Below, piece by piece: positions 14,504 to 42,440 of a DNA stretch of 55,210 nucleotides. Origin of the DNA: Neocallimastix lanati (nom. inval.) (taxonomy: Eukaryota > Neocallimastigomycota > Neocallimastigomycetes > Neocallimastigales > Neocallimastigaceae); assembly GCA_016946835.1 (NCBI GenBank), contig JACVTC010000292.1:1-55210 (forward strand), in the 5' to 3' direction. The position numbers and the translations under genes were made by a program. The notes beneath the pieces are model-generated. The model searched no databases, was not told the origin of the DNA, and saw only the letters and a list, made by a program, of their open reading frames with translations. The number at the start of each line of letters is the position of its first letter. Position 1 is the stretch's first letter.

Positions 14504-14505
14504 AG

Positions 14506-15447: not shown

Positions 15448-15471
15448 TTAAGGGAAGTTCTCAATCTTCCC
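15438..15471 (+). promoter_or_regulatory. -1 ribosomal frameshift signal, element B
   Basis: Slippery heptamer TTTAAAT (15438-15444) is in gag phase. A 7-nt spacer with the stop codon follows, then stem GGGAAG (15452-15457), an 8-nt loop and CTTCCC (15466-15471). Pol is open in the -1 frame from 15444. The stem differs from that of A, C and D while the geometry is the same. Confidence 0.85.
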
Positions 15472-19607: not shown

Positions 19608-19673
19608 AAAAAAAATAATAATAAATAAAAATAAATTTTAAATTGAAATTACTTTTGAGATCACTTTATTTTT

Positions 19674-19712
<39 letters not shown>

Positions 19713-19836
19713 ATATCCAATATTATCAGAAACTTACATTTTTATTTGAAAATTTCAGTAATATTATTATAAATTAATAAAATATCCTTATTAATATCAA
19801 TTATTTCATCAATAATACATTTATATGAAAACAAGA

Positions 19837-19877
<41 letters not shown>

Positions 19878-20001
19878 ATTAAAATTATTTCATTTATTTT
19901 TTTTAATTTTTTTTATTATTATATTTTTATAAAAAAAAAAATTTTTTTATTATTAAAATTATTTCATTTATTTTTTAATTTTTTTTTTTTTTACTATATT
20001 T

Positions 20002-20044
<43 letters not shown>

Positions 20045-20138
20045 TTTAAATTTTAACAACCTTAAATTTATATTTTTCCTTATTATTATTATTTATTATT
20101 CTTTTCAGATATAAGTTATATCTTATGGGAGGAAAACT
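19608..20138 (+). other. Element B 3' untranslated region, homopolymers and PPT
   Basis: No gene. It contains several A runs of 30 or more (about 19679-19710, 19839-19874, 20007-20040) and T-rich stretches. The polypurine tract GGGAGGAAAA (20127-20136) ends 2 nt before the 3' LTR. Confidence 0.75.
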
Positions 20139-20773
20139 TGATAAATAATAATAATATATATTAAGAAATAGTAAAAGATTTTATAATATTTTAAATATTA
20201 AAATAATTAAATAGTAATAACTTAATAATAATCTTGTTCATAATATTAAATAATTATAATAATTTTTATTATTATAATAATATTATTTAATAATAATATT
20301 TATATACATTTGATTGGAAAATATAGTTACACCAACTATAATAATAATATAAATATAAAATTTTTTTATATGGAATAATTAGTTCTTTAGAAATTAATTT
20401 ATAAAATAATTATGAAATTTATTAAGAGAATTTATTTAGAAAAATAATGAATTTTAACAATTAAAAATATTTCTCAACGTTGTATAATCAACTATAAAAA
20501 TATTAAATAAAAATTATTATTATAACAAATATATAAAGTTATAAACTATATTATTTATATTATAGTATTTAACTATTTTAATTATTTATAAAAAGAATTA
20601 TAATATTTAATATATAGATTAAATATTATATAAATTTTTAATAAAACATTTTTTTTAAAATAATTAAGTAAATTTAAATATTAAATATCGGTAAAACTTG
20701 TTAAAATAAAACAAGGTAAAACGATATAAAATAAGTTTAAGAAAATAAAATAAATAATACCTTAAACTTATTA
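20139..20773 (+). repeat. Element B 3' LTR
   Basis: 635 bp starting TGATAAATAA and ending CTTATTA. The last A doubles as the first base of the agag repeat next to X1. Confidence 0.88.
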
Positions 20774-20776: not shown

Positions 20777-21335
20777 TGGTACGTTATTTTTATATATTGT
20801 ACCTTTTATATGATTTGGGGAAAGCAAGTTGTAAAACTATAAAATAATATATTCTAATAAAAGAAATAAATAAAAAAATTATAACACAAAATTAATAATA
20901 AATTTTAATAAATAATAATGTGTTACTTTTAAGTCTTTATTTTATTTATAAGTTTTGTTCTTTAAATAAGTACATTTAAATTTATTATAACTTTATTATA
21001 TCTTTAAATTTATATTTTAATAATAATATTAACCAAAATATCCTAAATATTTATTCACCCGAATAAATATTTTATAATTCCTATTCTAACTATTATATTC
21101 TTTAAAGATATTAAATTATTAAGTTCCTCCTTTGTTAATATTTTATCTTTCACTTATTTTTATACTATAATTTATCTTAATTCTTATTGGTTATCTATTA
21201 ATTAAAATTATTTTTATTAATATTATATTTTTATATACTAATTAAACCTTATACCTATTATAATAAAATAACTAAAGAATTATTTATTTTCTTATATTTT
21301 TAATAATTTATTCTATTTTAGTGAGTAACGTACCA
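20777..21335 (+). mobile_element. X1: solo LTR-like element
   Basis: 559 bp with perfect 10-bp inverted termini TGGTACGTTA and TAACGTACCA, flanked by agag on both sides (20773-20776 and 21336-21339). A second 559-bp copy, nearly identical, is X2 (36353-36911). TG...CA ends, 4-bp duplications and a position among Ty3-type LTRs favour a solo LTR left after recombination. A MITE is the alternative. No coding capacity. Confidence 0.75.
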
Positions 21336-21339: not shown

Positions 21340-21997
21340 TGATACAGAACATTTAAAATATTCCATATCTAGTTATTTATTTATTTGGTCGTTTCTCTAG
21401 GGAATTATGACACAATAATATATTCTAATAAATATAAGAAAATAATTTATAATAATAATGTTTTATAATAATATTTTGTTCTTTATTTATTTTTATAATT
21501 TTACTCTTACATACATAATAATTTATTATTACATTCTCTTAATTTTATATAATTGTTAAAATAATTAATTAATATTATATTTTTATTAAACATATCTCTT
21601 TAACTATTAATTTCCTAATAACTTTATTTAAAAATACAATTTCATTATTAAATATATTTAACTATTAATATTTAAAATATATTTCCTGAATAAAATATAA
21701 TTATCAATATTTATAATATAATTCCTAAAACTATATAATTCTCAAAATAATATTTAAAATATAAAATAAAACTTATTAATAATAATGATGAATTAATTTA
21801 TTATCATAATAATAGAATCATTATTAATATAATTTATCTATTTTAATTATGATAAAAGAATTAACCATGCTTTTAAAAATAATTATTTGAATTAACTATA
21901 TATAAATTATTTTAATTATTATAACCAATAATATTTATACAATATTTCTAACCTAAATTTCTTACCTAAATCTTATTTTTATAGTGGTATCGTATCA
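21340..21997 (+). mobile_element. Y: solo LTR-like element
   Basis: 658 bp with inverted termini TGATAC and GTATCA. It is flanked by agag (21336-21339 and 21998-22001). The start TGATACAGAAC resembles the LTR starts of A (TAATACAGAAT) and C (TGATAAGAAT), so it is probably the solo LTR of a related Ty3-type family in plus orientation. Confidence 0.7.
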
Positions 21998-22001: not shown

Positions 22002-22240
22002 TGTTAAGGTTTTAGAGAATTAAATAAAAATAAAGTAAGAAACACAAATTTTATTTATTTATTTATTATTTTTATTTATAAATTTATTTGATTTTATTTT
22101 ATTTTATTTTATTTGATTTGATTTTATTTTATTTAATTTTTTTTTATAAAAACTATTAAATTTAAATTGAATTTTATAATTAGTTATATAAAATTTAATT
22201 ATAACAATATAAATAAAATACATTTATAATATTAATAAAA

Positions 22241-22287
<47 letters not shown>

Positions 22288-22785
22288 TTATTTATTTAAA
22301 AATATCTAAAATATTACTAATAAGAATTTATTTAATTGGCTATAATTTTTATTACAATCTGTTAAAATATTCAAATAAAAATAAAAATACTATTCTAATA
22401 TAAAGGTTTTTAATAAAATAAAATATTTTTCAATATAAAATAAAACATTTCGATATAAAATTTTATAATAAAAAGTTAAAATATAATATATAAATTTTTA
22501 ATTATCAATATATAAAAATATTATTAATATAAATTTTCATTATTAATATAAAAAAAAAATAAGATTTATTATTAATATTGCTAATATAAGTTTTAAATAT
22601 ATAAAAATATTACTTTTAATATAAGATTTAATATAAAAATCTAAAGTTTAATATAATTTTTGATTTAATTTTTGATCTTTGGATTTAAAAATTTATTAAA
22701 GTACAAAAATAATAATGTACACATAATGTATTAGAAATAAATCGTAGATTTAATTAAGAATGCATTATTTAGTACATTCTTATCA
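22002..22785 (-). repeat. Element C 3' LTR
   Basis: 784 bp, same length as the 5' LTR and very similar. It includes a T run of ~43 (near 22242-22285). Compared with D's 863-bp LTR it lacks about 110 bp containing TATAAATA; an ATTTT/GATTT-repeat stretch occupies that place. Confidence 0.92.
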
Positions 22786-22803
22786 AGATGCCCCGACGAA
22801 GAC
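22786..22803 (-). other. Element C polypurine tract region
   Basis: On the minus strand, GTCGGGGCATCT immediately precedes the 3' LTR. The same tract is found in D and, as GCGGGGGCATCT, in A. Confidence 0.65.
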
Positions 22804-25800
22804 TCAAGCTTCTCTGTAAGCGGAGTTAAACTTTACTAAATTTTTAAAGTGAACATTCCTATCGAGTTGCTTTCCAGTCTTCTGATCGATTAGGGTTGCC
22901 GTGTTGAATTGAATTTTTAAAATTTTAAATGGTCCATTGTAATATGGTTCTAGCTTAGTGCGGCTAAAGTTTCTAACAAGAACAAGATCACCAGCCTTTA
23001 ATTCTTTTCCCTTTTTCATACTTATTTGTTCTTCTCGTCTTGTTGCCCAATACTTGTTAGCATTCTTCACATTTTCGCATGCTTCTCTAGTCCATTGATA
23101 ATGACGAACAAATTTTTCCATTAAAATTTCATCATATGATTTACCTGCATTTTCAATTGTTCTTATGGCTATATCATAAGGCTGTTGGTCTTCTCTTCCA
23201 TATACTAATTCAAAACTAGAATGTCCAGTAGCTGTATTTTTGGTAGTTCGAAGTGCCCATAAAGCAGAAGGTAAAACTTCATCCCAATCTTGATTTTTCC
23301 TTCCTAATAAACGAAGTAATTTTCCAATTTCTTTATTTCGATTTTCAGTAAGGCCATTTGATTCAGGGTGGTAAGTAGCTACAAATTTAACATATACATC
23401 ATAAAAATCAAGAAAGATTTTAGTCATATCAGAAGTGAATTGGACTCCATTATCAGTAGTAATAACTTGAGGTACACCATGTCTTGCAAAAACGTTTATT
23501 AAAAATTTAATTATATCAGAGGAAGTTATGTTTTCAGTGGGTTCGGCTTCAACCCATTTGGTAAAGTAATCAACAGTTACTATAATATATTGATTATTAT
23601 TTCTTGTTTTTGGTAACGGTCCTATAATATCTAATCCTAAATGCACAAAGGGACCCTCCACTTTAGTTGGATGGTTTTCGGTTGGTTCTGGATATGGTTG
23701 AGGACGATTTAATTGGCATTTTTCACAATTACTAACAATTCTTTTGATATCTTTAATCATATGATTCCAATAAAAGTTTTTCTTAAGTCTTTGATATGTT
23801 TTGTAATATCCTTCGTGGCCAATATTATGAGCTTCTAAAATTAATTTAAACCTTTCATTTTCGTCCGTTATTAATTTTCTATAATTTCCATTGTCGATAA
23901 AGTAATCTTCACCATCAATAACAGTAAACTTTTCATTAATAAATTCCTTTATAACTTTAGATAATAATTCTTCATTATTTCCATCAGTAATTTTTGTTAA
24001 TAATATCTTTCTCTCTTCCTTACTTTTCATTCTTGAAAGAGCATCAGCTAACACATTCTTTTTGCCTGATTCATATTTTATATTAATTCCAAGCATACTA
24101 GCGGTTAGACACCATCTTGTTTGCCTTGCATTCAAAGGTTCTTTATTCTTAAATAAACCAACTAATGGTTTATGATCTGTGTAAATAGTTGTAGGTAGTG
24201 GATTTCCTTCAATATAAGATTTAAATTTAGTCATACAGTAAAACAAAGCGGTTCCTTCCAAATCGGTAATACCATAATTCTTTTCAGCTTTCTTTAAACT
24301 TCTACTTATAAAGTGTATTGGATGCTCCTTACCGGTTTCTTCTTCTTTTTGTAAAAGAACTCCACCAATTCCATTATACGAAGCATCAGTTCTAATGATA
24401 AAAGGTTTGTCAAATGACGGAAATTTTAGAATAGGTGCATTGATTAATTTTTCTTTTAGGAGTTCAAAGCTTTCTTGTTGTTCTTTATTCCATTCATATT
24501 TAGTATTCTTTTTCAATAATTTACATAAAGGTGAGGTAATTTGAGCATATTTAGGAATAAAGTCACGATAATATCCTACTGCTCCTAGAAATGATCTTAA
24601 TTCATGAATTGATGAAGGGGCTTCCCACTTCTTAATAGCTGTTATTTTACTTTCCATGGGACTTAATCCTTTAGTAGTAAGTTTGTGACCTAATACATCA
24701 ACTTCAGTTTGAAGAAAATGGCACTTTTCAATATTAATTTTTAACTTGTTTTCTTTAAATACTTCTAATACTTGTTTAATATGAATTAAATGTTCTTCGA
24801 TACTTTTTGAATAGATCAAAACATCATCAATAAATACGTAAACAAATTCACCAATAAAAGGGAATAAAATTTTATTCATTTCTCTTTGGAAGGTTGAGGG
24901 AGCTCCAGTAAGTCCAAAAGGCATAACCTTAAATTGATAATTTCCAAACTTAGTAGTGAAAGTGGTTACTTCAACGCTTTCTTCATCCATTAAGATTTGG
25001 TGAAAACCAGAAAATAAATCAAGAGTTGTAAATATTTTAGATCCTCCGAGACTATCAAAAATTTCATCTATATATGGAACTGAATAAGAATCTTTTTCTG
25101 TCATATCATTGACTTTTCGGTAGTCAATACACAAGCGCCACTTTCCATTGTGTTTTAGAATGAGTACTACTGGAGATGACCATTCTGAACAGGATGGTTC
25201 TATCAATCCTTTCTTAATAAGCTTTGTAAGTTCTTCTTTTAAGATATCTGATTTTAATTTAGTTAACCTATAACTTCTTAATTTTACTGGCTTTGCATTT
25301 GCTTTCAAACGGATCTTATGTGGTGAAAGTTTAGAAGGAGTTAGTTCTTCTGTTGAAGTGGCAACTATGTCAATCATTTCTTTGAGAATTTTAATAATTT
25401 GTTCTTTATAATCTTTATTTAAGGTACTTAAAAATTCATCACTCTCAATAAATTCCATTGGAGTTAATTCCTTTATAATTTCCTTTTCATTATTCGTTTC
25501 TTTAACTTTTCTAATAGTGCAAATTATACTTTCTTCATCATAATATTGATTATTTATTTTAGCTATTTCTTCGTATTCACTTTCTGACAAAAGTTTACAT
25601 AAACTGTTTAAGGTCGGATGAATAAATAAACAATGATCGATTTGAGTTTTAAAGTTTATTAACATATCATAAAATGAGTCTTCTTTCTCAATAATTCTAA
25701 AGTCCGCATTAAATTCATAATTATTAATTTTTACTGGTAATTGAACAATAATTCCTTCCGAGTATTCTTCATCTTGTGTTGCTAGTTGGATTCTTCCACG

Positions 25801-26808
25801 ACTTTTTCCAACTGTTTCATATTCACCAGGTAATTTATCAAAATACTGCTTAGTAACGATGCTTAGGTTACTACAAGAATCAATTAAAAGTTTTCCTAGT
25901 ACTCCGTCAACACTTGCATCAACCATTGCTAAGTCTTCTTCGGCTACTTCATTACTTTTACTTATGTAGCTATGATCATAGTTATTCACTAATAAAGTTC
26001 GTGCTATTACATTGTCTACAGTTCCAATTATTTTAGATTTTTCTAACTTTAAACCTTGAGTTAATTGTGAACGAATTTTCGGACATGCATTCAAGAGTTG
26101 ACCTATCGTAATACTGGATTTAAGATTATTTAAATCATCCATAATATTGTAAGGTTCTTTATTATTCATCATTTTGATATTCCTTTTTACTAACTGAGTA
26201 TTTTCATTATTAGTTTCTTTAGTTTTTGTTGAAATTAATTTTTCCAAAGTATTAGTTTTATTTTGTTGATTATCTTTATTCATTTCTATATCTTCTATTT
26301 CATTATCGATTACAAGTATATCTTCAGATTCAACTTTTTTCTTTCCTTTTGATGAATAATTGTTGTTTTCTTCTTTACTTTCTCTTACTCTTGTTATATT
26401 TCTTAATTCCTTTTCTTTTTGTTTTTCTTTGTTAATATTTGGTTGAGTTAAAATTGAAGGAAGTATTTGATTTTTATAAACTTTATTTGGTTTATTATGT
26501 AGCTCATTTTCTTTCTTCTTTCTTAAAGCAGGAGTTGCGAAAGGACGTGGATTATCTTTTAAACTTTTATGTACTTTCTTGGAATTATTTTCTTCCTTTT
26601 CGCTGTTATTATCATTCATTTTTCTTTTTATAGCATTTATAATGATATTATCCTCACTTTCAGTTGTGTCACTAAAATCAGATTCTTCAGATTCTTTATT
26701 AAAGGAATTATTATCAATTGGGGTATTCTTGGTAAAAGTATTATTTTGTAAATTATTTAATGAAGCTATTGTTTTGTCATTGGGAGTGCTTCTGCTCCCA
26801 TTTAGAAG
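22804..26808 (-). CDS. pol: Pol of element C (PR-RT-RNase H-IN), -1 frame
   Basis: The frame is open from the slippery site at 26808 and ends 18 nt before the 3' LTR region. From the ATG at 26619: a Lys/Glu-rich N-terminus; protease LLIDSCSNLS with Cys in place of the usual Gly (about 244-253); RT with GKWRLCIDYRKVN and VFIDDVLIYS; RNase H with IIRTDASYNG and TDHKPLVG; and integrase with HNIGHEGYYKT, CEKCQ, LGLDIIGP, TTDNGVQFTS and NGLTENRN. No chromodomain. It is nearly identical to the D protein, with a handful of substitutions and 5 extra codons in the frameshift-only segment. It appears catalytically complete apart from the odd protease triad. The short distance to the LTR leaves room only for the PPT. 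Confidence 0.94.
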   Translation of the reverse strand, partial: LLNGSRSTPNDKTIASLNNLQNNTFTKNTPIDNNSFNKESEESDFSDTTESEDNIIINAIKRKMNDNNSEKEENNSKKVHKSLKDNPRPFATPALRKKKENELHNKPNKVYKNQILPSILTQPNINKEKQKEKELRNITRVRESKEENNNYSSKGKKKVESEDILVIDNEIEDIEMNKDNQQNKTNTLEKLISTKTKETNNENTQLVKRNIKMMNNKEPYNIMDDLNNLKSSITIGQLLNACPKIRSQLTQGLKLEKSKIIGTVDNVIARTLLVNNYDHSYISKSNEVAEEDLAMVDASVDGVLGKLLIDSCSNLSIVTKQYFDKLPGEYETVGKSRGRIQLATQDEEYSEGIIVQLPVKINNYEFNADFRIIEKEDSFYDMLINFKTQIDHCLFIHPTLNSLCKLLSESEYEEIAKINNQYYDEESIICTIRKVKETNNEKEIIKELTPMEFIESDEFLSTLNKDYKEQIIKILKEMIDIVATSTEELTPSKLSPHKIRLKANAKPVKLRSYRLTKLKSDILKEELTKLIKKGLIEPSCSEWSSPVVLILKHNGKWRLCIDYRKVNDMTEKDSYSVPYIDEIFDSLGGSKIFTTLDLFSGFHQILMDEESVEVTTFTTKFGNYQFKVMPFGLTGAPSTFQREMNKILFPFIGEFVYVFIDDVLIYSKSIEEHLIHIKQVLEVFKENKLKINIEKCHFLQTEVDVLGHKLTTKGLSPMESKITAIKKWEAPSSIHELRSFLGAVGYYRDFIPKYAQITSPLCKLLKKNTKYEWNKEQQESFELLKEKLINAPILKFPSFDKPFIIRTDASYNGIGGVLLQKEEETGKEHPIHFISRSLKKAEKNYGITDLEGTALFYCMTKFKSYIEGNPLPTTIYTDHKPLVGLFKNKEPLNARQTRWCLTASMLGINIKYESGKKNVLADALSRMKSKEERKILLTKITDGNNEELLSKVIKEFINEKFTVIDGEDYFIDNGNYRKLITDENERFKLILEAHNIGHEGYYKTYQRLKKNFYWNHMIKDIKRIVSNCEKCQLNRPQPYPEPTENHPTKVEGPFVHLGLDIIGPLPKTRNNNQYIIVTVDYFTKWVEAEPTENITSSDIIKFLINVFARHGVPQVITTDNGVQFTSDMTKIFLDFYDVYVKFVATYHPESNGLTENRNKEIGKLLRLLGRKNQDWDEVLPSALWALRTTKNTATGHSSFELVYGREDQQPYDIAIRTIENAGKSYDEILMEKFVRHYQWTREACENVKNANKYWATRREEQISMKKGKELKAGDLVLVRNFSRTKLEPYYNGPFKILKIQFNTATLIDQKTGKQLDRNVHFKNLVKFNSAYREA

Positions 26809-26814
26809 TTTAAA
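26781..26814 (-). promoter_or_regulatory. -1 ribosomal frameshift signal, element C
   Basis: On the minus strand TTTAAAC (26814-26808) is in gag phase. A 7-nt spacer with the stop follows, then TGGGAG, an 8-nt loop CAGAAGCA and CTCCCA (26800-26781). Identical to D. Confidence 0.88.
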
Positions 26815-27713
26815 GACTTTTTGGAATATATTTCTTTTTTATTTTTTTCCATAATCTTATTTAATTGAGGGCAATAGTATGAGTAATGACCTTCTTCCTT
26901 ACAGAAGAAGCAAGTTTTAACAGATAAATTTCTCATTTTCTGGGTTGATTCTTCTATAATATCTTGAGGTTTCGGTTTATTATTTGTTTGACTTGTTTGG
27001 AAAGTTTCGTTTCTTCTTTTAGGATAAAGTCTTGAAGTAGTACTGTTTTGATTATTTTGATTATGCTGGGAATTATTAACATTATAGGTATTAATATTAT
27101 TGTTCCTTACAGAAAGTCTATCTACTTTCTCGGCAATTTTGAAAGCTTTCTCCATACTTATATCATCTTTAAGGGATAATTTCTTCCAGGCTTCATAATT
27201 ATTTTGAATAGAATCAATATAATCTAGTACACCAATGCGCTTTCTTCTCTTTTTATCAAGTTTAGTGTACAAAGTTCTATATCTTACATTAAAGTCTTTA
27301 ATCTTTTCGTTTCTTTTAATTCGCATTGCACGAAGTTCTTTAAGAAGTAAATTTTGGTCTTCTTTAATACCGTAAAAATTTTCAAGACTTGAAATAATTT
27401 TTCCAAGAGAAGGAAATTTAATATCATCATCAACATTTTCTTCTTCATCATCTTCTTCTTCTTCATCTGATGAATCATCACTTTCATCATCACTATCTTC
27501 TCCCAAATCTTCAATAACGCGTTGTACTTCACCAGAGCTGGTAAGTAAACAAGCATTAAATATTGTTTCTGGATCTGTAATACCTTGTATCTTGATCCAA
27601 AGTTTTAATTCAGTAGCCCAGGACTTAATATCTAAATTGTCCTTGCTAAGTTTCACAATATCTCTTAATTCTTTTTTCAATTCTTTAAAGCTCAAAGTTG
27701 TTTCCTTGGACAT
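26802..27713 (-). CDS. gag: Gag of element C (Ty3/gypsy)
   Basis: 303 aa from ATG 27713 (MSKETTLSFKELKKE); the longer frame to 27779 starts at a doubtful upstream codon inside the leader. A Gag core with WATELKLWIKIQG and LLKELRAMRIKRNEKIKDFN is followed by a strongly acidic segment (Asp/Glu run near residues 80-105), an Asn/Gln-rich linker and a CCHC zinc knuckle in TCFFCKEEGHYSYYC. It ends SLNF at the frameshift site. Closely matches D and is related to A. Confidence 0.9.
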   Translation of the reverse strand: MSKETTLSFKELKKELRDIVKLSKDNLDIKSWATELKLWIKIQGITDPETIFNACLLTSSGEVQRVIEDLGEDSDDESDDSSDEEEEDDEEENVDDDIKFPSLGKIISSLENFYGIKEDQNLLLKELRAMRIKRNEKIKDFNVRYRTLYTKLDKKRRKRIGVLDYIDSIQNNYEAWKKLSLKDDISMEKAFKIAEKVDRLSVRNNNINTYNVNNSQHNQNNQNSTTSRLYPKRRNETFQTSQTNNKPKPQDIIEESTQKMRNLSVKTCFFCKEEGHYSYYCPQLNKIMEKNKKEIYSKKSLNF

Positions 27714-27879
27714 TTTGTTTAAATATTTCTTGTTGTATATTAATGAGGTGATTAAATAAGAATAAATTTGGAAATACAACTTTAAAAATATAGTTTAATA
27801 GGTAATTTAATATCGAATCAATTTTTAAAACAATATATTTTAGTAACTTTTGAAAATAATAATTTTATTTGCTTTCTTT

Positions 27880-28085
27880 AGTAGATATAAGCTCGAAATC
27901 CTTATCGACAACTTAGTAGAAATTATAAAGCACGAGGTTCTTTTCGACTACTTTATTAAGAATAATTTTAAGTTCGAAATCTTTATCGACAACTTAATAG
28001 AATAATTTTAAGTTCGAAATCTTTATCGACAACTCAATAGAATATTTTTCAAGCTCGAAACCTTTATCGACCACTTGAATTTTGT
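27880..28085 (-). repeat. Tandem hairpin repeats in element C leader (5 units)
   Basis: ~41-bp units with core TCGATAAAGATTTCGA (minus strand), some diverged. Each can fold because AAGTT and TCGA on the left pair with TCGA and ACTT on the right. Five cores are visible here and seven in D, so copy number varies between nearly identical elements. Confidence 0.75.
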
Positions 28086-28244
28086 AATTTAGTATATTTG
28101 TAGTAATAAATTTAGAAGCAAAGTTTTATTTATTATTTTCACCTTTCAAAAATTTTTCTTTTTAAACGATAAATATTGTATTGTTATAGCTAATAAAATT
28201 ATTAATTAATTATAATTATTAAATACAAAAAAATAATCTTTATT

Positions 28245-28407
28245 GTCGTACAATCTGATAGTACACACTGTCTGACGTGCAGCTTACCTAATGGTGTCAT
28301 GCCACGCGTGTGCCACGATTACTATATTCAATATAAAATATAGCAGTTCAGAGCCTACTAGCCCAATTACTATGTAGGATAAACTTAATCCGATAATCTA
28401 TGTACGG
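28245..28407 (-). ncRNA. Conserved structured leader block, element C
   Basis: Homologous to 1910-2077 (A) and 48381-48543 (D). The stem CTATATT and AATATAG around loop TTATATTG lies at 28343-28322. Compared with A, both sides of one base pair have changed. The small hairpin further on is ACC ATTA GGT here, and longer in A. Confidence 0.7.
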
Positions 28408-28659
28408 AATAAAAAAAAATTTTAAAAGTATTCAATAATATTTTTATTAACTAATAAAAATTAACTAAAAACACAATATTTTCAAAGTAAATTAAGATTC
28501 TATTACAGGAATTATATAACAAATAAAGTACCAGTAATAAAAAAAAATAAAAAAAATTTAAATGGCGAAGTTAGCCAAAGTCTGATACTTTATATAATAA
28601 AGTGCCTTATAACTAGCACAAAGAAAAGTAAAAAAAATATATATAAAAAAAACAATCTT

Positions 28660-28980
28660 ACGCCTTCGGTGACGTAAGCTCCTTATTCGCCAGTGCTTGG
28701 AAAGTACCCGCACCTTCGTGTGTTGAAACGTTGAAGGCTGAACTATTATTACCGGGTCGGTAACCAAATACCTTCGTCTACTTTCCAATTAATCTCCAAA
28801 TTAACTACTATTCAATAACCTACTATGAATAGAGTTAATTTGTTGCTATCTGAGAATACACTGTGTATGAGCTCTATCCGCTCCTTGTTATAATTTTACA
28901 AAATTTGTTTTTTTTTTTTTTTTTGAATCTTAATTTTACTTATTTAAAAAAAATTTTTTTTTATATATATATCAAACAAG
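28660..28980 (-). ncRNA. Structured leader region, element C
   Basis: Same as 47900-48135 in D on the opposite strand: GC-richer than its surroundings, with several strong hairpins. It is absent from the shorter leader of A. A 76-codon ORF across it is identical in C and D but starts at a non-ATG codon and is probably not a gene. Confidence 0.55.
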
Positions 28981-29084
28981 CGCCATAGGTTAATCAAAGG
29001 ATTAACGACTTACTTGTTTATCAATATAAAATAAAAAAAAATTAAAAAAAAATCTATGTTATTTACTATTATTTCTATTTAATT

Positions 29085-29101
29085 CCCCGATATCTCCACC
29101 A
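29085..29101 (-). other. Element C primer-binding site (tRNA-type)
   Basis: On the minus strand TGGTGGAGATATCGGGG lies 6 nt after the 5' LTR. Identical to A and D. Confidence 0.78.
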
Positions 29102-29107
29102 TATAAA

Positions 29108-29346
29108 TGTTAAGGTTTTAGAGAATTAAATAAAAATAAAGTAAGAAACACAAATTTTATTTATTTATTTATTATTTTTATTTATAAATTTATTTGATTT
29201 TATTTTATTTTATTTTATTTGATTTGATTTTATTTTATTTAATTTTTTTTTATAAAAACTATTAAATTTAAATTGAATTTTATAATTAGTTATATAAAAT
29301 TTAATTATAACAATATAAATAAAATACATTTATAATATTAATAAAA

Positions 29347-29393
<47 letters not shown>

Positions 29394-29891
29394 TTATTTA
29401 TTTAAAAATATCTAAAATATTACTAATAAGAATTTATTTAATTGGCTATAATTTTTATTACAATCTGTTAAAATATTCAAATAAAAATAAAAATACTATT
29501 CTAATATAAAGGTTTTTAATAAAATAAAATATTTTTCAATATAAAATAAAACATTTCGATATAAAATTTTATAATAAAAAGTTAAAATATAATATATAAA
29601 TTTTTAATTATCAATATATAAAAATATTATTAATATAAATTTTCATTATTAATATAAAAAAAAAATAAGATTTATTATTAATATTGCTAATATAAGTTTT
29701 AAATATATAAAAATATTACTTTTAATATAAGATTTAATATAAAAATCTAAAGTTTAATATAATTTTTGATTTAATTTTTGATCTTTGGATTTAAAAATTT
29801 ATTAAAGTACAAAAATAATAATGTACACATAATGTATTAGAAATAAATCGTAGATTTAATTAAGAATGCATTATTTAGTACATTCTTATCA
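29108..29891 (-). repeat. Element C 5' LTR
   Basis: 784 bp, matching 22002-22785, with the same TATA-segment loss. Its outer end adjoins agag and then the E LTR. Confidence 0.92.
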
Positions 29892-29907
29892 AGAGTTAGT
29901 AAAAAAT

Positions 29908-29980
29908 GTTGTTGTAGTCTGGTGGTAATACACCATGACATTGAAGCCGAACTTCTTAGGTTCGACTCACACCCTTTCCC
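29908..29980 (+). other. tRNA-like Pol III module in element E 5' LTR
   Basis: A-box-like TAGTCTGGTGG (29915-29925) fits TRGYNNARNNGG except for one G. B-box-like GGTTCGACTCA (29959-29969) lies at normal tRNA distance: if A-box T is tRNA position 8, the TTC is position 54 exactly. Acceptor, anticodon and T stems do not pair, so it is not a working tRNA. C, Y, X1 and B are all stacked just upstream. It is retained in both E LTRs and, diverged, in G. Confidence 0.65.
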
Positions 29981-30190
29981 AATCTAAATTATTTTTAGTT
30001 AATTAATTAAATTATTGTAGAAAGTTCTAGAGTTTCTTTGGTTAATATTATATAACTAAATGAAACTAGAAAGTTCTATTTTAATAATTATTTTATCATT
30101 TTTCTATAAGATTCATTTTCTAGAAAGAAAACTTAATTTTTCGAACTTTCGTTAATCTTAATTTTTTCCGAAACTGTTTTTCCGAAAAAG

Positions 30191-30244
30191 TATAAATAAG
30201 CGTGAATTTCTCAATAAAAAATAAATTTTCTTTGTGCTTTTATT
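30191..30244 (+). promoter_or_regulatory. Element E core promoter and self-primer (R start)
   Basis: TATAAATA (30191-30198) is followed at 30234 by GTGCTTTTATT. This is the exact reverse complement of AATAAAAGCAC at the LTR/leader junction (30397-30407). Beyond a 2-nt bulge, a further AAAGAAAA segment of the leader pairs with TTTTCTTT upstream of the start. Confidence 0.75.
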
Positions 30245-30397
30245 AACTAGTTAAAAGTAATTCGAAATATTACAATAACTAATTAATAATAAAAAATAAT
30301 AATAAATTTTATATTTTAATAAAAATATTAATAAAACAAATTTTTTAAGAAAACGAATTACTTATTAGTGTAGACCTATTGGGTGTAAACCGTTACA

Positions 30398-30407: not shown

Positions 30408-31647
30408 CCAAAGAAAAGAAGCCCAGTACCCCTGCACTAAGGACTAGCCAAAGGAAATCTACCAACTCAAGAAATCAAGGAAATCAAGGATATCTACCAA
30501 CTCAAGAAATCAAGGAAATCAAGGAAATTAAGGAAATCTACCAACTCAAGAAATCAAGGAAATCAAGGAAATCTACCAACTCAAGAAATCAAGGAAATCA
30601 AGGAAATCTACCAACTCAAGAAATCAAGGAAATCAAGGATATCTACCAACTCAAGAAATCAAGGAAATCTACCGAATCAAGAAGATTTGTTATAAGGCGA
30701 ATAAAATAAAATAAATTAAATTACAGATACTATACTAAACAACATCTCGCATTAAATAGTACTCTACTCTCCGAATAAATATTTATTTTAATTATAATTA
30801 ATTTTAAATTTCTTACGTTATATATAAAGGCTTGCCTGGCTCCCAAAGCGACGATAGTTGAGCATCGTTACCATAATACTTTGTCGTTCAGATTCTGTTG
30901 ATAACTGGGGAAGATAATTTGTTGTACTTTTTCATGCTAACAAAGGTTAGATACAAACAAAAATACAATTACATTACTTCCTTCTACCATTAATTGGTAC
31001 TAACAATCGACTTAATCTGTGTTTATCGATAAAGAGCTAAAGAGACTTACCACGCAAGGCTTTAACAAATTATATATTTCCTGGCTCAATACTATATGAT
31101 TTGGTTTATAACAATTCAATAAGAAATAAAGATTAATCAAATAAAATAAATATTTAATTACTCCTATATCTTCCAAAATAATTATATATTACTTTATCAC
31201 TATAAAAAAAAAAAAAAAAAAAAAAATCTTAATCACGGGATATATCAAAAAAATCAACTCTGGAAATATCCAATCTCAAATCACTCTCAAAATCAATCTG
31301 AAATTTTATATCAACCTAATGCAATAAATTTTAAATCTCAATAATCTTTTCTAAATTATTTCCAGCTCTCTATAACTATTAAATTACTATAATAATATAT
31401 ATACAAATCTACTATACCTAATTTAGTATATTATATAAATTTAAAATTTCAATACCAAACCTTATTTAATTCTAAATAATTCCAGTGGGATCAATTATTA
31501 CTATTTATATATTCAAATCCTCCTTAATCAAAAGTATATTATAATTCAATTCCTCTCTATTATACTGAAAAAATCGTTCTTAAATATATCTTATTCCAAC
31601 TTATTCAATAATCAACTATAAAAATAACAGTGAAACTTATATTCAAA
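30408..31647 (+). other. Element E leader (untranslated)
   Basis: About 1.2 kb between primer site and gag-pol. It holds a tandem repeat (30455-30676), a GC-richer segment around 30826-30920 with a small hairpin (ACGAT, then ATCGT), and an A run near 31204-31226. No convincing ORF. Confidence 0.6.
30455..30676 (+). repeat. ~35-bp tandem repeats in element E leader
   Basis: About six units contain TCTACCAACTCAAGAAA followed by one to three copies of the 9-mer TCAAGGAAA. The 9-mer number varies between units, so slippage is ongoing at two levels. The function is unknown. Confidence 0.85.
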
Positions 31648-34600
31648 ATGGAAGAAAACAATTTTGCCAACGCAACCTATAAGGATGGTTTTGCCGGAGA
31701 TAGACGCTACCTTAAGGGATTCTTAGCTAAAATGAATTTAATCTTCATGATTCACCCTGATCGATTCAATAATGATGAAACAAAAGTAATCTACGTTATT
31801 TCTAGGTTATATGGTAATGCTATGAATTGGGCAGCATCACTTATGGAGAATCAGGACCCTTGCTTGTTAAATTACGAAGCCTTCGTTGAAAGAATGAAAT
31901 CTGTATATAGGAGTTATGACTCAACATTCATTGCAAATCAGAAACTCAGAACTATAAGACAAAAACGGTTAGGCGACATTAGAAGCTATATACTCGAATT
32001 CAACTCTTATGCCGACGAGTCATCTTGGAACGAAGAAGCGAAAATGGACGCATTTCTTGTTGGTTTAAATGATCAAATCGCTACAAGAATTCTGGAAATG
32101 TTCCCTGGTCCAAGATCTCTTACTGCTATGCAAACTATAGCTTCCAGAATAGATGGCCGTCTATCAGCCCATAGGCAATTTACAAATAATCAAAATCGAT
32201 CAAACAATAACCTTAATAACAACAATTCTAATAAGAAAAGATGGAATTTTTATAAGAAAGGTTCGAATTCTAAACATTATGGACCCCTATCCGACGAAGA
32301 GAAAGAAAGAAGAAAAAGAGAAAACCTCTGTTTATATTGTGGATCCTCAAATCATACTCTAGGCAATTGTCCACTCAAAAATAAGAAAAAATCACCCTCA
32401 AGCACTTCTCATATTACTAATCCTGAACCAAAGGCCAAAGAAAGACCAAGAATCTCAGATCAACAAAATTTGAGTCTTCCTATATTTGAATTCACTCTCA
32501 ATGTTTTAAAATCATCAGTCAAAACTAAGATTCTTCTAGATTCAGGTTCTCAACTTAATCTTATGGATGTCTACTTTGCCAATGAAAATAACATTCCTTA
32601 TTCATCCGAAACCATTCATCCTGAAGTAGGAGGAATTGGTGGTACTCAGAAAATTCTCGGGGAAACTTTGCCAATTTCGATCCGCTATAAAAATCACAAT
32701 TGTAAAACTAAGTTTTATGTCGTCGATTTACCTTCTTATTGTGCTCTTCTTGGCGCTGAATGGCTCTCTACTCATAATCCAACAATAGATTTCTCTTCTA
32801 AAACACTTCATTTTAATTCAAAATATTGTATTAATAATTGTCTCGTTATTCCAAATACTTATACAACCTTCATTCCTTCATGCAATTTAATAAACGAAAT
32901 TCCAAAAAATTCTGATAATTCGGACAACCAAAAAATTGAAAAAATTAACAATTCAGAAGAAAAAATATCTAATGAAATAATTAATAATACTAAGAACCAA
33001 CACAAGGAACCCAACGAAGATAATAAAAATGTTATCTATCTTTTACCAACTAAATTATCCTCATTTATGGATGTTTTTAGTGAAGTCGCTGCGAACATGC
33101 TACCCCCTCATCGACAATATGATTGTGAAATTAATTTGAAACCAAATACTAATTTATATTACGGCCCAATATATCCATTAACAGAAAAGGAATTAGTTGC
33201 CCTCAAGAAATATATTGACGAAATGCTTGCTAAAGGTTTTATAAGAAAATCAAATTCTCCTGCCGGCGCTCCAATTTTCTTCGTACTAAAAAAGAACGGT
33301 GAACTCAGACTTGTTGTGGATTACCGTCGGCTCAATGAATGTACTTATCGTAACTCCTTTCCCATTCCACTTATCAATTTTATGTTAGAAAGACTTCGTA
33401 AGGGTAAAATATTCTCTAAAATTGATTTACGCCAAGCCTTCAATCTTATAAGAATCAAGAAGGGAGATGAGTATAAAACTGCATTTACTTGTGTATTTGG
33501 ACATTTTGAATACCTAGTAATGCCCTTTGGACTCAAGAATGCTCCTGCAGTCTTCCAACACTTTATTAATGATGTATTTGAAGACATCATAGGAAAATTT
33601 GTTTTCTGCTATATTGATGATATCATCATCTTTTCTCCAGACTTAGAAACACATTACGAACACCTTACTGAAGTACTTACTAGACTAAGAAAAGCAGGAT
33701 TATACGCTAAACTCGAAAAGTGCGAATTTTGTGTACCTTTTCTAGACTTTCTCGGACACAGAATCTCTGCAAATGGTATCTACATGGATCCTAAGAAGGT
33801 TTCTTCTATCCTAGAATGGCCAGCCCCAACTAATACTAAGGAACTCCAATCATTTTTAGGTCTTGCTAACTATTACAGACGCTTCATCACAGGATTCGCT
33901 AAGTTATCCCATCCACTTAACATTTTACTCAGAAAAAATACAAAATTCATTTGGACAACCGAATCTCAAAAGGCTTTCGATGAAATTAAGTCAAAATTTT
34001 CTTCAGCCCCTGTACTTGCTTATCCAAACCGTGAAATCCCTTTTATGGTTGAAACCGATAGTAGTAATTTTGCTATTGGTGCTATTCTTTCACAAACTTC
34101 GACTAAAGACAACAAAATTCACCCTGTCGCATTTTTCTCTAGAGCTCTCAACCATGCCGAAAGAAATTATCCCATATACGATAAGGAACTTCTTGCCATT
34201 GTTTCGGCCTTAGAACACTGGAGACACTTATTAAAAGGCACAGATATTCCCTTCACCATTTTCTCCGATCATCGAAACTTACTTTACCAAAAGAAACCTG
34301 AAAAAATGTCACAAAGACTTGTCCGTTGGTCAATATTCCTATCCGAATTCAATTTTAAAATTGTCTATCGTTCTGGATCATCTAATGGTAAACCTGACGC
34401 ACTTTCCAGAAGACCTGATTATATTCCTTCCTCTGACGACTCCTCTTCCGAAACTCCATTTTTCGTACTTCGCCCTGAAAATTTCGTTGTTACTGTCTTA
34501 ACTAATTCTGATCTCTCTAATAAAATCCTTAATGAATGTAAAGATGATATTTTCTATCATAATATCTACGAATATTTAGAAAACAAAAAACTTCCAATTC

Positions 34601-35931
34601 CTCATCCCAACATTGATAAATTTTCTCTAAGTAATAGTTTCTTACTCTTCGATAGCAAATTATACGTTCCTCCTAAGTGTCGTTCTTTCGTTTTGAATAT
34701 TTGTCATGACTCTCCTTCCTCTGGACACTTTGGAATTAAGAAAACCCTCAATCTTCTGAACCGTGACTTCTGGTGGCCTTCTTCCAATCCTGATACTAAG
34801 GATTATGTCCGCTCTTGCGAAATATGTTGTCGCTCAAAAGTTTCCAAACACAAACCTTACGGCTTGTTAAACCCGCTTGACATTCCTAATCGCCCTTGGA
34901 CTTCCATCTCAATGGACTTCATAACAGACTTACCCAAACCAAACGGCTATACATGTATTTTGGTGGTTATCGATCGTCTTTCCAAGATGTGTCATTTAAT
35001 TCCGTTCCCAAACGTTCCTTCTGCTTCAGACACAGCTTCCGCCTTCCTTAACCAAATTTTTCGCCACCATGGACTTCCTACTGAAATCCTATCGGATAGA
35101 GGAACACAATTTACATCTAAATTTTGGACAGCTGTTTGTAAAGGACTAAATATTTCTCTTAAATTTTCTTCTCCATTTCATCACCAAACAAATGGTTTAA
35201 CGGAGAGGGTGAACTCCGTTATCGAACAATACTTAAGATGCTATACAAATTTCAAAGGATCTAATTGGAATGACTTCCTTTACTTAGCAGAATTTAGCTA
35301 TAATAACACCATTCAAGAATCCACTAATCATTCACCTTTCTTCGCTAATTATGGATTCAATCCCAGACATTCTCCCGAAGTCCCCACAAATGTTGAAGTA
35401 CCTAGAGCAGAAGAACTTGTTAAAAACCTTGCAGAATTAACCAAGGAATTAAAAGAAAATATTAAAATAGCAATTAAAAAACAAGAGAAATATGCCAATA
35501 AGCATCGTATGGAACCACCTGAATTCAAGAAAAATGACAAAGTTTGGATCAATAGTTCTCTAATTATAAAGAATGGTAACAAAAAGCTTAAACCAAGAAA
35601 ATTAGGACCTTTTAAAATCCTAAGCAAAATATCTCCTGTTTCGTATAAACTTGACTTGCCAAAAAATCTTAGGATTCATCCAATCATGCATGTCTCTGAC
35701 CTTGAACCGTACTTTGAAGATAAGTTTGGAAGAAACCAAGAACCACCACCAATTATCATTAACAACGAAGAAGAGTACGAAGTTGAACAAATATTAGACA
35801 AACGAACTCATTATGGGAAAATTCAATACTTGATAAAATGGAAAGGATATCCGCTTTCAGAAGCTTCTTGGGAACCTGAGGAAAATCTTAATTGCCCCAA
35901 ACTCTTGAAAAAATTCAATAAAGATAATTAA
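31648..35931 (+). CDS. gag-pol: Gag-Pol-chromodomain polyprotein of element E
   Basis: 1427 aa in one frame from ATG 31648 ([14 protein letters not shown]); the GTG at 31630 is not needed. Counting from that ATG: Gag core ~10-170; zinc knuckle [14 protein letters not shown] at 228-241; protease [11 protein letters not shown] (DSG 298-300); RT with YIDD at 655-658; RNase H with [11 protein letters not shown] and SDHRNLL; integrase HHCC (H1020, H1027, C1057, C1060) and DDE core with [17 protein letters not shown] and NGLTERVN; the SDLEPYF linker; and a C-terminal chromodomain with [18 protein letters not shown] and SWEPEENL. Gag and Pol in one ORF without a frameshift is typical of Tf1/sushi chromoviruses. 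The chromodomain usually tethers integrase to histone marks. All motifs are intact and E is probably competent. Confidence 0.95.
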
Positions 35932-36332: not shown

Positions 36333-36352
36333 ATGTAACGAATCGTAGAGTT

Positions 36353-36911
36353 TGGTACGTTATTTTTATATATTGTACCTTTTATATGATTTGGGGAAAG
36401 CAAGTTGTAAAACTATAAAATAATATATTCTAATAAAAGAAATAAATAAAAAAATTATAACACAAAATTAATAATAAATTTTAATAAATAATAATGTGTT
36501 ACTTTTAAGTCTTTATTTTATTTATAAGTTTTGTTCTTTAAATAAGTACATTTAAATTTATTATAACTTTATTATATCTTTAAATTTATATTTTAATAAT
36601 AATATTAACCAAAATATCCTAAATATTTATTCACCCGAATAAATATTTTATAATTCCTATTATAACTATTATATTCTTTAAAGATATTAAATTATTAAGT
36701 TCCTCCTTTGTTAGTATTTTATCTTTCACTTATTTTTATACTATAATTTATCTTAATTATTATTGGTTATCTATTAATTAAAATTATTTTTATTAATATT
36801 ATAATTTTATATACTAATTAAACCTTATACCTATTATAATAAAATAACTAAAGAATTATTTATTTTCTTATATTTTTAATAATTTATTCTATTTTAGTGA
36901 GTAACGTACCA
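36353..36911 (+). mobile_element. X2: solo LTR-like element
   Basis: 559-bp near-copy of X1 with the same 10-bp inverted termini, TGGTACGTTA and TAACGTACCA. It is flanked by agtt on both sides. Confidence 0.78.
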
Positions 36912-36915: not shown

Positions 36916-37706
36916 TGGTATGGTTCATATAATTTTAGGAATATAATAATAATTAACACAAATAATAAAATTACAATAAAAAAAAAAAATAATTTGTTTT
37001 AAAATCAATATTTATTTATTTAAATTTATAAAAGAAAAATAATAATATAATTATTTATTTAATAAAAAGAAAGTTATTGATTATATTTTATTTCACTAAA
37101 ATTACATGTATTTATATTTTTTTATCAAATTAAAATTTGTAAAGCCTAACTATTTTTTTAATAAACTAATTACTAATTATTTTTATAAATAAAACATTTA
37201 AATTGAAATTGAATTATTATTTTAGTTAATAATATTATTGTTATAAATAGTAGTTATATATTATTGAATTATTAATTATTTAATAATAGTTTAATACTAA
37301 TATATATAAAATAAAAATAAAGAGATTATACAGAATATTTTATTGTGGTTTAGTTAAATTTAGTAATTAAAAATAAATTTAAATTGATAACGAAAATTTT
37401 AATAACTAATTAAATAGATTTGATTATTTTCAATATAACATAATACAAAAGAAATATAATATTAATATATTAAGTGGGCAAGGACAATATTCTTGGCTAA
37501 AGATTTTTAATACATTATAATGGAATCGGATCGATAATTCAAAAAGGAATTATAAGTTAATTAGTGATTTATTAACTTAAGATTTCTATTTAGTAATATT
37601 TGAAGAATATTGGAAAGTTCCAATTATATAGAATAGAATAATCTATAAGGTTAGAATAATTTATATTATTCTAGCACAATTAGTATTATTTGTTCATTCT
37701 GTATTA
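36916..37706 (-). mobile_element. A': solo LTR of the element A family
   Basis: 791 bp, nearly identical to the reverse complement of the A LTRs, with TAATACAG at 37706 and CCATACCA at 36916. agtt lies on both sides. Its 5' end faces the tRNA-like module, 13 nt upstream of position 1, in the same orientation as A, C and D at their sites. Confidence 0.92.
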
Positions 37707-37719
37707 AGTTAGTAAAATT

Positions 37720-37792
37720 GTTGTTGTAGTCTGGTGGTAATACACCATGACAATTAAGCCGAACTTCTTAGGTTCGACTCACACCCTTTCCC
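37720..37792 (+). other. tRNA-like Pol III module in element E 3' LTR
   Basis: Same as 29908-29980 with changes in the anticodon region (ACAATTAAG against ACATTGAAG). A-box TAGTCTGGTGG at 37727-37737 and B-box GGTTCGACTCA are both unchanged. Confidence 0.65.
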
Positions 37793-38209
37793 AATCTAAA
37801 TTATTTTTAGTTAATTAATTAAATTATTGTAGAAAGTTCTAGAGTTTCTTTGGTTAATATTATATAACTAAATGAAACTAGAAAGTTCTATTTTAATAAT
37901 TATTTTATCATTTTTCTATAAGATTCATTTTCTAGAAAGAAAACTTAATTTTTCGAACTTTCGTTAATCTTAACTTTTTCCGAAACTGTTTTTCTGAAAA
38001 AGTATAAATAAGCGTGAATTTCTCAATAAAAAATAATTTTTCTTTGTGCTTTTATTAACTAGTTAAAAGTAATTCGAAATATTACAATAACTAATTAATA
38101 ATAAAAAATAATAATAAATTTTATATTTTAATAAAATTATTAATAAAACAAATTTTTTAAGAAAACGAATTACTTATTAGTGTAGACCTATTGGGTGTAA
38201 ACCGTTACA

Positions 38210-40226
38210 GTTAATATATTTCTTTTGTGAAATATTATATCCATATTCAGTAGGTTCGACAGTTATTCCAAGTATATGATTTACTGGACTACATTTTGAT
38301 ATTTTAAATTTGTTTTTAATTAGTTCAACAGTGGAGTTTATTTCATTATTTAAGCCTGTAATAAGCATATCATCTACATATAATGCAACAATGCAAGTAG
38401 TTTCTTTTTGAGAGTTTGATTTTGAGAATAAACATTGTTCACTTTTTAGTTGAGTAAAACCTATACTCTTCAGAAAATTAGATATTGTTATATTCCACAT
38501 TCTTCCTGCTTGTTTCAATCCGTATAAGGCTTTGTTCAGTTTCCAAAAACCGTTTTTGTAGTTTGGATCTCCTTCTGGAATTGTCATATATATTTTTTCA
38601 TTAAGAGGAGCATTTAGATATGCAGCTTTAATGTCTAATTGTTGTATATTCCAATTATGTAATGAAGCTATTGCGATGACTAAACGCATACTTTCAACAG
38701 ATAACGTGGGAGAGTATGTTTTGTCATAATCAATTCCTTCAATTTGTTTAAATCCTTTGATCACTAGTCTAGCCTTGTATTTTTCAAGTTCTCCTTTATC
38801 GTTATATTTTTTTGTGAATACCCATTTATATTCAATAGGTTTTCTTCCTTCGGGTAGCCTTTTTACTAAGGACATGGTTTCGTTGTTGTAGAGGTTTTCG
38901 AGTTCGTTTGATATTGCTTCTATCCATTTATCCTTTTCATCACTAGTTACTGCTTCTATGAATGTTTGTGGAGTATCTAAATCAATACTATTTATTTGTT
39001 TATTTATTTCATTGCTTGTTTGATTTGTTTCATTTTCGATATTAACATTTTCATTTGATTTGTTATAATTATCAAACTTTGCTTGATTTAATAATGCTTT
39101 TGTAGCATTAATTATTGTTCCATTTAATCTTCCAGCTCTTCCGTTGCTTTGTGGGTTTCTTGGAACAATAAGATTTCTTTGTATACCTGCTTTGTTACAG
39201 ATATCTATGAATTTCCTTGAAGTATATTCCTTTCCATTATCACTTTGTATTTTGGTTATTGTTAAATTTGATTCGTTTGTTACCATTCGTATGAAATTTT
39301 CAAAAATTTCTGGAACTTCCGATTTTCTTTTCAGTAGATATATCCAACTTTTTCTTGTGAAGTCATCAAGGAAAGTTAAAATGTATTTGAAATTATTCCT
39401 TGATTCTTTAAGAGGTCCAATAATATCCGAATGAATTAGTTCCAATAGTCTTGTGCTTCTTGCATTTAATGTTTTTCTGAAAGGTTCTTTCTTCAGCTTT
39501 GAAATTTTACAGCCAATACAGTGAGTTTTGTTAATAGTATGGCCATTTAAGTATTTAATAAGATTATTATTATAGAAATGGCACAGTCTTTTATGCCATA
39601 TACTTAAGGAGTATTGGTCTAGATTGTTACTTTGTAAACTGTATATTGTTTTATAATTTCCTTGTTTATTATTAACGTAAATATTACAAATTTTAATTGA
39701 GTTTTCTTTTTCTATACATAAAAGTTGACCGTTTAATTTTGCTAATCTAAAGTATGCATTGTTATCAATAATGATAACATCAGCTAAGTATTGTCTTTTA
39801 AGATCGTTAAATGATATTAATGTTTTATTTTCATTAATATCTTCTGAATATAATACATTTTTTATTATGAAGTAAATATTATTGATGTATCCCGTAAGAT
39901 CTCCAATTTTTGAAACTTGTACTATTTCTTTTTCCTTTGTTGGTAGGATCATATTAGTATGATAATCTCTAACATTACATAGATTTTTAAGTGATCCCGT
40001 GATATTTGAAGATGCTCCAGAATCTATGGATATTACATAACCATTATTATAATCTTGATGACATTTATGATTGATAATGAATTCATATATAGTTTTTCTA
40101 TTTAGGTCGTTTGTAATTATGTTTGGAATCATAGGTGGGAGTGGACTATCATGAGGTTTTACTAATTTATTGTTACCAATAAGGTTTAATTCTAGATTAT
40201 TATTATTTTCTATGTTATTGATTATG
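38210..40226 (-). pseudogene. Element H: Ty1/copia polyprotein remnant
   Basis: The frame is open from just inside a stop near 40226 to the junction with E at 38210. Counting from ATG 40132: protease IDSGASSNIT (DSG 37-39); GAG-pre-integrase and HHCC zinc region with WHKRLCHF and CIGCKISKL (~180-210); integrase core with HSDIIGPL and QSDNGKEY; then a jump to RT with KWVFTKKYNDKGELEKYKAR and YVDDMLITG. Order PR-IN-RT defines Ty1/copia. It is dead: no gag; the integrase motif normally reading NG-A-ER is NGRAGRLN (catalytic Glu replaced by Gly); the integrase C-terminus is missing; and RT is cut before RNase H by element E. Confidence 0.9.
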
Positions 40227-40960: not shown

Positions 40961-40969
40961 AAGTATATA

Positions 40970-42160: not shown

Positions 42161-42440
42161 ATCTAATAATTTTTTATTAAAGAATATTACAGATCAATGT
42201 TTTAGAAATGAAAATTTTTTACATTTTATTGCATTCAATTGATTATGTAATTTAATATATAAAACAATATTATTGTTTGTTAATAATCTCATTAAATATA
42301 AATGTTTTTTTTGCTTTCTAACATATATAATTAAATAAAACATTTTATTTTTAAAAATAAATTGTCTTTAATATTCTTTAATAAAAAATAATGATCAATA
42401 TTTATTTTATTCTATATATTAGTACTTTTATATTATTACA
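42161..42440. other. Spacer between opposed minisatellite arrays
   Basis: ~280 bp of unique AT-rich DNA. It forms the centre of the large inverted repeat made by the two arrays. No gene is seen. Confidence 0.6.

Follow-up and report, generated by a model that had tools for sequence, protein, structure and literature searches.

Several retrotransposons with a Ty3/gypsy-type pol integrate within narrow windows in front of tRNA genes. According to the available parts of the reports, Ty3 of Saccharomyces cerevisiae inserts 2-3 bp before the start site of RNA polymerase III (Pol III), guided by TFIIIB (PMC8632968, PMC5911963), DGLT-A of Dictyostelium inserts upstream of the mature tRNA at 13-33 bp, with a mean of 15 (PMC5006619), and Tj1 of Schizosaccharomyces japonicus uses an insertion window of 5-11 bp (PMC4600332). 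Long terminal repeats (LTRs) containing a Pol III promoter have been proposed for Helenus and Ajax, both small non-autonomous elements. Helenus, a non-autonomous terminal-repeat retrotransposon in miniature (TRIM) of 311-1263 bp that occurs among fungi in Pucciniales only, has LTRs whose A and B boxes derive from tRNA but in most families form no proper tRNA, and Cassandra, a non-autonomous TRIM of plants, carries a 5S rRNA sequence with its Pol III promoter in the LTR (PMC10886601, available part). In the present study, a contig of Neocallimastix lanati (JACVTC010000292.1) was analysed over its whole length of 55,210 bases (the window; GC content 23%), and the assembly to which it belongs (199.0 Mb, 762 contigs) was searched. 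The LTRs of two retrotransposon families of the window, E and G, and of two related families found elsewhere in the genome, K and M, contain tRNA-like modules which in all likelihood are mobile Pol III-type landing pads for Ty3-like elements such as the elements A and C of the window.

tRNA-like modules in chromovirus LTRs

Pairs of A box and B box at tRNA spacing were found in only three places of the window, near 29908-29980 and 37720-37790 in the two LTRs of E, and near 923-850 (reverse strand) in the LTR of G. The B-box core alone is not rare (four in the window; mean 0.7 and largest number 4 in shuffled sequences), and its 15-nt motif (GGTTCGACTCACACC) had 490 exact copies in the genome, with none for the reversed control. 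Plain chance is ruled out by the shuffles, as none of 60 dinucleotide shuffles of the window gave an A-plus-B pair, and by the reversed-pattern controls, which were all zero. ARAGORN called no tRNA at the three modules of the window, and Rfam, with E-values up to 10 admitted, gave no tRNA match for a single copy from each family (E, G, K, M) and no match in any of the seven loci run in all. The modules are therefore not ordinary tRNA genes, which agrees with the earlier note on this sequence, where the A-box/B-box module was held to be incapable of working as a tRNA.

The spacing from A box to B box is 43-44 nt in all four families, and the GC fraction of the modules is 0.43-0.52 compared with 0.17-0.20 in the remainder of the LTR. 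No TTTT occurs between 20 nt 5' of the A box and the B box, and one is present 23-33 nt past the start of the B box, which is weak evidence in an AT-rich LTR. Modules were numbered in the tRNA style from position 1, with the A-box T as T8, and distances are given as the nucleotides in between; labels such as L177 denote single genomic loci examined.

The modules are located in the U3 region of related LTRs. In intact copies, E LTRs start with TGTAACGAATC after the polypurine tract, 35 nt 5' of the A-box T; the start TGTAACGAA is common to E, G and K. Counted from it, the A-box T is nucleotide 36 of the G LTR and falls at 36-40 in the K LTR. The remaining family, M, was detected at L177. Element E has a single Gag-Pol open frame of 1439 amino acids (31612-35931, forward strand) with Gag, reverse transcriptase (RT), RNase H, integrase, SH3_Tf2-1 and chromodomain, and in L044, L046 and L048 the entire frame of 1439 residues is aligned without interruption. 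The chromodomain (PF00385) is present at the C-terminal end of Pol in the E of the window and in the copies of E, G and K that were read; these three families are chromoviruses. A TATA-like box and the start of R lie downstream of the module in the E 5' LTR (within 29892-30397), and the Pol III-type module in U3 is thus separate from the RNA polymerase II (Pol II)-type promoter.

In having both a chromodomain and SH3_Tf2-1, E resembles the Tf1/sushi-type chromoviruses. Tf1 primes itself by means of an LTR-complementary sequence just after the LTR, and E is similar in this respect, as ATAAAAGCAC directly after its LTR is complementary to GTGCTTTTAT, which lies within the LTR 3' of the TATA-like box. 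We know of no tRNA-like module in Tf1. To our knowledge, Pol III-promoter LTRs have been known only from small non-autonomous elements (Cassandra, Helenus and Ajax). The LTRs of E, G, K and M are like those of Helenus and TRIMp3 in their tRNA-like A and B boxes, and share with Cassandra a Pol III-type promoter, which in Cassandra is of the 5S type. However, E differs from Helenus and TRIMp3 in being a gag-pol-chromo element with a long open frame and a separate TATA-like box; in the available text, Kojima considered it unlikely that autonomous partners would share such tRNA-like LTR sequence (PMC10886601).

Shortened copies were also observed among the chromoviruses. In E, five of them (L039, L040, L042, L043 and L045) have one common deletion junction, the frame lacking the residues from about 523-535 up to 1188, and L041 is similar with a broken frame. 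A G copy (L185) and a K copy (L186) are likewise internally deleted, with deletions other than that of E. RT and RNase H are lost, while in L039, L043, L185 and L186 Gag and the chromodomain are kept in one long open frame. Since eight G LTR pairs among the listed matches to the B-box core, of which both ends were examined, are spaced 5256-5306 bases apart (L185 being the only G interior read), the deleted forms may have been much amplified.

Insertions at modules and at tRNA genes

Ty3-type elements or their solo LTRs had been claimed in the earlier note to lie at a constant distance upstream of the modules, and its three distances were reproduced: 14 nt for A (938 against 923), 16 nt for C (29891 against 29908) and 13 nt for the solo LTR A' (37706 against 37720). 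The placement upstream of the module is correct, but the E LTR starts further out (TGTAACGAA), and its first nucleotides were found beyond the far side of the C and A' inserts, which are thus within the LTR. Each of the sites bears a stack of several elements.

The same position was used throughout the genome. Among 30 E LTRs chosen by similarity to positions 29892-29990 of the window, the window's own copy included, 13 were interrupted, with the first LTR nucleotide kept being 12-16. All 30 were unbroken from nucleotide 16 to 520, and no cut fell in nucleotides 17-520; the junctions are therefore not scattered along the LTR. L031 aligns from nucleotide 6, the incoming LTR end resembling the lost sequence. 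A second sample was drawn from 100 listed matches of the 490 to the B-box core; 60 were taken in contig order, and five of the listed 100 were omitted as E copies already studied. Apart from a truncated copy (L140), 59 had the full module: 37 with intact LTR starts (19 G, 18 K), 21 abutted by another LTR (16 G, 4 K, 1 E), always 21-25 nt before the A-box T, and one with a deletion (L125). By eye, at least 12 different LTR ends were distinguished at the pads of the two samples. Element C presented its LTR start to the module in all eight of its cases among the 60 copies, whereas elements B and D of the window belong to families that turn the LTR end towards it.

Exact C facing ends number 733 in the genome, 322 of them internal ones before the polypurine tract, which leaves about 411 outer ends. 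The pattern of TGTAACGAA, 0-14 nt and the outer end of C gave 46 genome matches and none in the control; the spacers were mostly of E, G, K or M type, with a few unassigned ones such as TGTAACGAATACTA and TGTAACGAATTCTAAA. Eleven of these joints were opened. Eight run into a full-length C, so that the module side is out of view, and L178 has no facing end; L174 continues to a stacked LTR with the duplication CATA, and L177 has the M module with the duplication ATAA. Further same-copy 4-bp duplications are AGAG (around the solo LTRs Y and Z and around C) and AGTT (around the solo LTRs Y' and A').

The same elements occur beside real tRNA genes. LTR-start flanks of A and C were sampled blind to tRNAs, 20 for each from the best 40 matches per element. 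For A, three flanks were real tRNA genes (Met, Gly and Ser) at 14-16 nt (L050, L057, L063; ARAGORN), three were modules (two G, one K), four were internal copies before the polypurine tract, and ten had another LTR-like start after 3-5 nt. For C, there were one real tRNA gene (Thr, 14 nt, L086; ARAGORN), three modules (two G, one K), seven internal copies, five flanks beside another LTR start (three sharing one flank) and one contig end. The remaining three C flanks (L070, L074 and L075; two identical) showed A- and B-box-like words by eye only; ARAGORN named no tRNA in them, and Rfam had no match in L070 and L075. These could possibly be unannotated Pol III genes, judging from their sequences.

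In addition, 19 tRNA-Arg genes among the 63 tRNA matches listed were examined. Ten follow a tandem tRNA-Asn gene. In eight of the other nine, inspection by eye showed an LTR-like end at 13-16 nt on the upstream side, L159 being ambiguous. C stands 15 nt before tRNA-Arg in L165 and L166, whose flanks are identical, and B stands before tRNA-Arg in L160. The LTR end seen at the E pad L025 was also found 14 nt before the tRNA-Asn gene in L184, where ARAGORN names both tRNAs. Thus, A and C do adjoin genuine tRNA genes, at 14-16 nt, and the target sequences vary among tRNA genes and the pads of E, G, K and M while the distance to the A box is constant. Contig C555 carries 34 of the 63 listed tRNA matches, many a few hundred bases apart, and is a tRNA gene array.

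A and C have the Ty3/gypsy pol order RT-RNase H-integrase, and the best solved-structure match of C is Ty3 Gag-Pol (7q5b, E-value 1.5e-105), Ty3 being also the closest to element E. In their pol and in the narrow window before tRNA genes, A and C are like Ty3, DGLT-A and Tj1. In contrast to these, their targets include promoters in the LTRs of other retrotransposons, and many families share sites and stack. The target duplication of Ty3 is 5 bp, compared with 4 bp here, and A and C are therefore classed as Ty3-like in targeting and not as Ty3. No Pfam chromodomain was found in A or C; the integrase chromodomain of Ty3, which contacts TFIIIB, was believed absent until its structure was available, according to the accessible part of the report (PMC8632968). 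Just inside the 5' LTR, A (1733-1749, forward) and C (29085-29101, reverse) share TGGTGGAGATATCGGGG, and D (14506-14517, forward) has TGGTGGAGAACC; the letters suggest primer-binding sites of tRNA type, unlike E.

Mechanism and alternatives

The following mechanism is proposed. The U3 of E, G, K and M would hold an internal Pol III-type promoter, with the A-box T at LTR nucleotide about 36-40, which would recruit TFIIIC followed by TFIIIB, in the manner of a tRNA gene. As the distance to the A box is constant, as in TFIIIB-guided integration, the modules most likely load both factors in vivo. The second guild consists of Ty3-type elements, namely A, C and at least 10 other families judged by their LTR ends, which would read the position of TFIIIB by tethering of their integrases. 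Their insertions lie 13-18 nt before module position 1, compared with 13-16 nt before real tRNA genes, with a 4-bp duplication. Since insertion leaves the module intact, the site would stay live and the pad could be used again by further elements, forming the stacks, and each jump of a chromovirus would plant two new landing pads. It is thus probable that autonomous chromoviruses have, next to the Pol II promoter of each LTR, a Pol III promoter that works, and that they are thereby self-multiplying landing sites for a guild that targets tRNA genes, one transposon class spreading the niche of another, and the insertions would record the position of TFIIIB to within a few bases. The earlier note had inferred decoy promoters that attract competing elements; as landing pads the modules are well supported, both by the confined junctions and by the same elements beside real tRNA genes, but no support was obtained for a decoy in the sense of an adaptation attracting rivals.

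The insertion pattern could also arise if the guild's integrases, those of A and C included, recognised the DNA of the site itself (e.g., GTTAGTAAAA) and the tRNA-like module were incidental, and GTTAGTAAAATT is indeed common to E and G at the site where several families insert. However, the same families are found at the pads of K, where the site is a poly-A stretch, at those of M (ATAACTAGTAAATT) and at a number of unrelated tRNA flanks, no common feature being evident except the A-box distance, and the duplicated tetramers are unlike one another (AGAG, AGTT, ATAA and CATA). Recognition of the site DNA was rejected as very improbable, because the insertion sites differ while the A-box distance holds. 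Adjacency by itself would even permit the reverse order of events, in which E, G and K landed beside LTRs of A and C and merely seem interrupted; this is refuted by the missing LTR starts of E, G, K and M, which are present beyond the inserts together with duplications, and its probability is negligible. It is unlikely, though less remote than these, that the module binds TFIIIC and a targeting factor while forming no working Pol III unit, as at the extra TFIIIC sites of yeast. The imperfect B box of E, G and K (GGTTCGACTCA) and the lack of a tRNA fold would fit this, but the extra sites of yeast, which are without TFIIIB, escape Ty3 as far as the available text goes (PMC5911963), and the repeated insertions therefore favour TFIIIB. 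The placing of TTTT in all four families also speaks for a Pol III unit, if weakly in such AT-rich sequence.

A more serious alternative, which falls only somewhat short of an even chance, is that the module is a passive relic, either a captured tRNA or a tRNA-derived short interspersed element (SINE), useless to the chromovirus, with the insertions as a by-product. A SINE insertion was proposed by Kojima as the source of the tRNA-like LTRs of Helenus (PMC10886601, available part). The conservation of the module also exceeds that of the remaining U3 by a moderate margin only: in an alignment of E, K and G with gaps excluded, 32 of 58 columns are invariant in the module and 95 of 204 outside it. 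On the other hand, four divergent families keep the module at the same LTR position with the same A-to-B spacing, and the excess over shuffled rows is larger in the module (32 against 3.7 expected) than in the rest of U3 (95 against 30.0). With M added, the numbers are 27/58 and 68/173, with 0.9 and 12.0 expected. Among E, K and G, two blocks show no variation, that of the B box and one in R/U5; with M included, the B-box block scores best of all 14-column windows in the part covered. These comparisons give hints that the module may be useful to the chromovirus, as a silencing barrier or through Pol III transcripts, within the limits set by common descent and the small number of families. An insertion could plausibly harm the host LTR, since it displaces the LTR end.

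Arrangement of the window and significance

The inserts at the three pads sum to about 30 kb of the 55-kb window. In the G LTR, the stack of A, B and V parts the module (850-923, reverse; A-box T 916, B box 873-863) from the outer 19 nt of the LTR (TGTAACGAAATCTTCAGTT, 13862-13880, reverse). A (938-7946, forward) has its LTR start towards the module and the flanks ACAT/ACTT, with one mismatch. Stacked behind it is B (7950-12857, reverse), whose LTR 3' end (TTATTTATCA, read towards a module) is also found directly beside further modules of G, in L090 and L092, and beside the tRNA-Arg gene of L160. The outermost is V (12863-13861), an LTR-like sequence without a clean duplication (TTCT/AACT); the same LTR-like end also abuts an E module in L038.

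At the E 5' LTR, D, Y, Z and C are parted by AGAG, the first A of which is shared with the end of D. D (13881-20773, forward), a Ty3-type element and the outermost visible one of this stack, has its 5' LTR start cut by G and is followed by (A)GAG. Then come the solo LTRs Y (20777-21335; flanks (A)GAG/AGAG) and Z (21340-21997; AGAG/AGAG), the end of Z also abutting an E module in L114, and the full-length Ty3-type element C (22002-29891, reverse; AGAG/AGAG), with its LTR start towards the module. The remainder of the E 5' LTR (29892-30397, forward) holds the module at 29908-29980, with the A-box T at 29915 and the B box at 29959-29969. The E 3' LTR reads in the order TGTAACGAATCGTAGAGTT, Y', AGTT, A', AGTT, AGTAAAATTG: its outer 19 nt (36334-36352, forward) follow the polypurine tract, Y' (36353-36911) and A' (36916-37706, reverse) are each flanked by AGTT on both sides, and the remainder (37707-38209, forward) holds the module at 37720-37790 (A-box T 37727, B box 37771).

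A second copy of C, C' (46826-54938, forward), lies 13 nt from position 1 of a tRNA-like gene (46738-46812, reverse), which ARAGORN reports as tRNA-??? with an odd anticodon arm and good acceptor and T arms; its flanks do not match (TTCA/ATTT). From its letters, this gene may be a Pol III target other than a normal tRNA. Near the end of E there is a Copia-type (RVT_2) fragment with an integrase core (38177-40228, reverse), and 40898-46343 is a large tandem-repeat block with 52-nt and 5-nt-based units and inverted copies on either side. For PF02013, a dockerin family of fungi, the genome gave at least 150 scored matches and 14 prokaryote controls gave none, which points to an anaerobic gut fungus (Neocallimastigomycota).

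Pol III-directed targeting and the Pol III-promoter type of LTR are both known; their combination and the class of the host element are new. In the titles and abstract openings of the papers listed by literature searches, no report was found of an LTR module as a target of Pol III-seeking elements, nor anything on such elements in gut fungi. The available part of the Helenus description (PMC10886601) reports no other elements inserting at it, and the Cassandra abstracts, as far as available, describe no target role. The remark in the earlier note that no case of a target inside an LTR had been described holds for integration targets within that literature, but Pol III-promoter LTRs themselves are known from Cassandra, Helenus and Ajax (PMC10886601, available part).

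The usual explanation of integration beside tRNA genes is that such places are safe havens, where the genes of the host are spared. Here, such targeting has apparently been captured by mobile promoters, and the supply of targets grows with another transposon. The Pol III-type promoter would lie inside an autonomous LTR element, which had been argued to be unlikely (PMC10886601, available part). The modules, with A and B boxes and no tRNA, offer a natural experiment on the requirements of Ty3-type targeting, and the landing pads would explain the large nested stacks.
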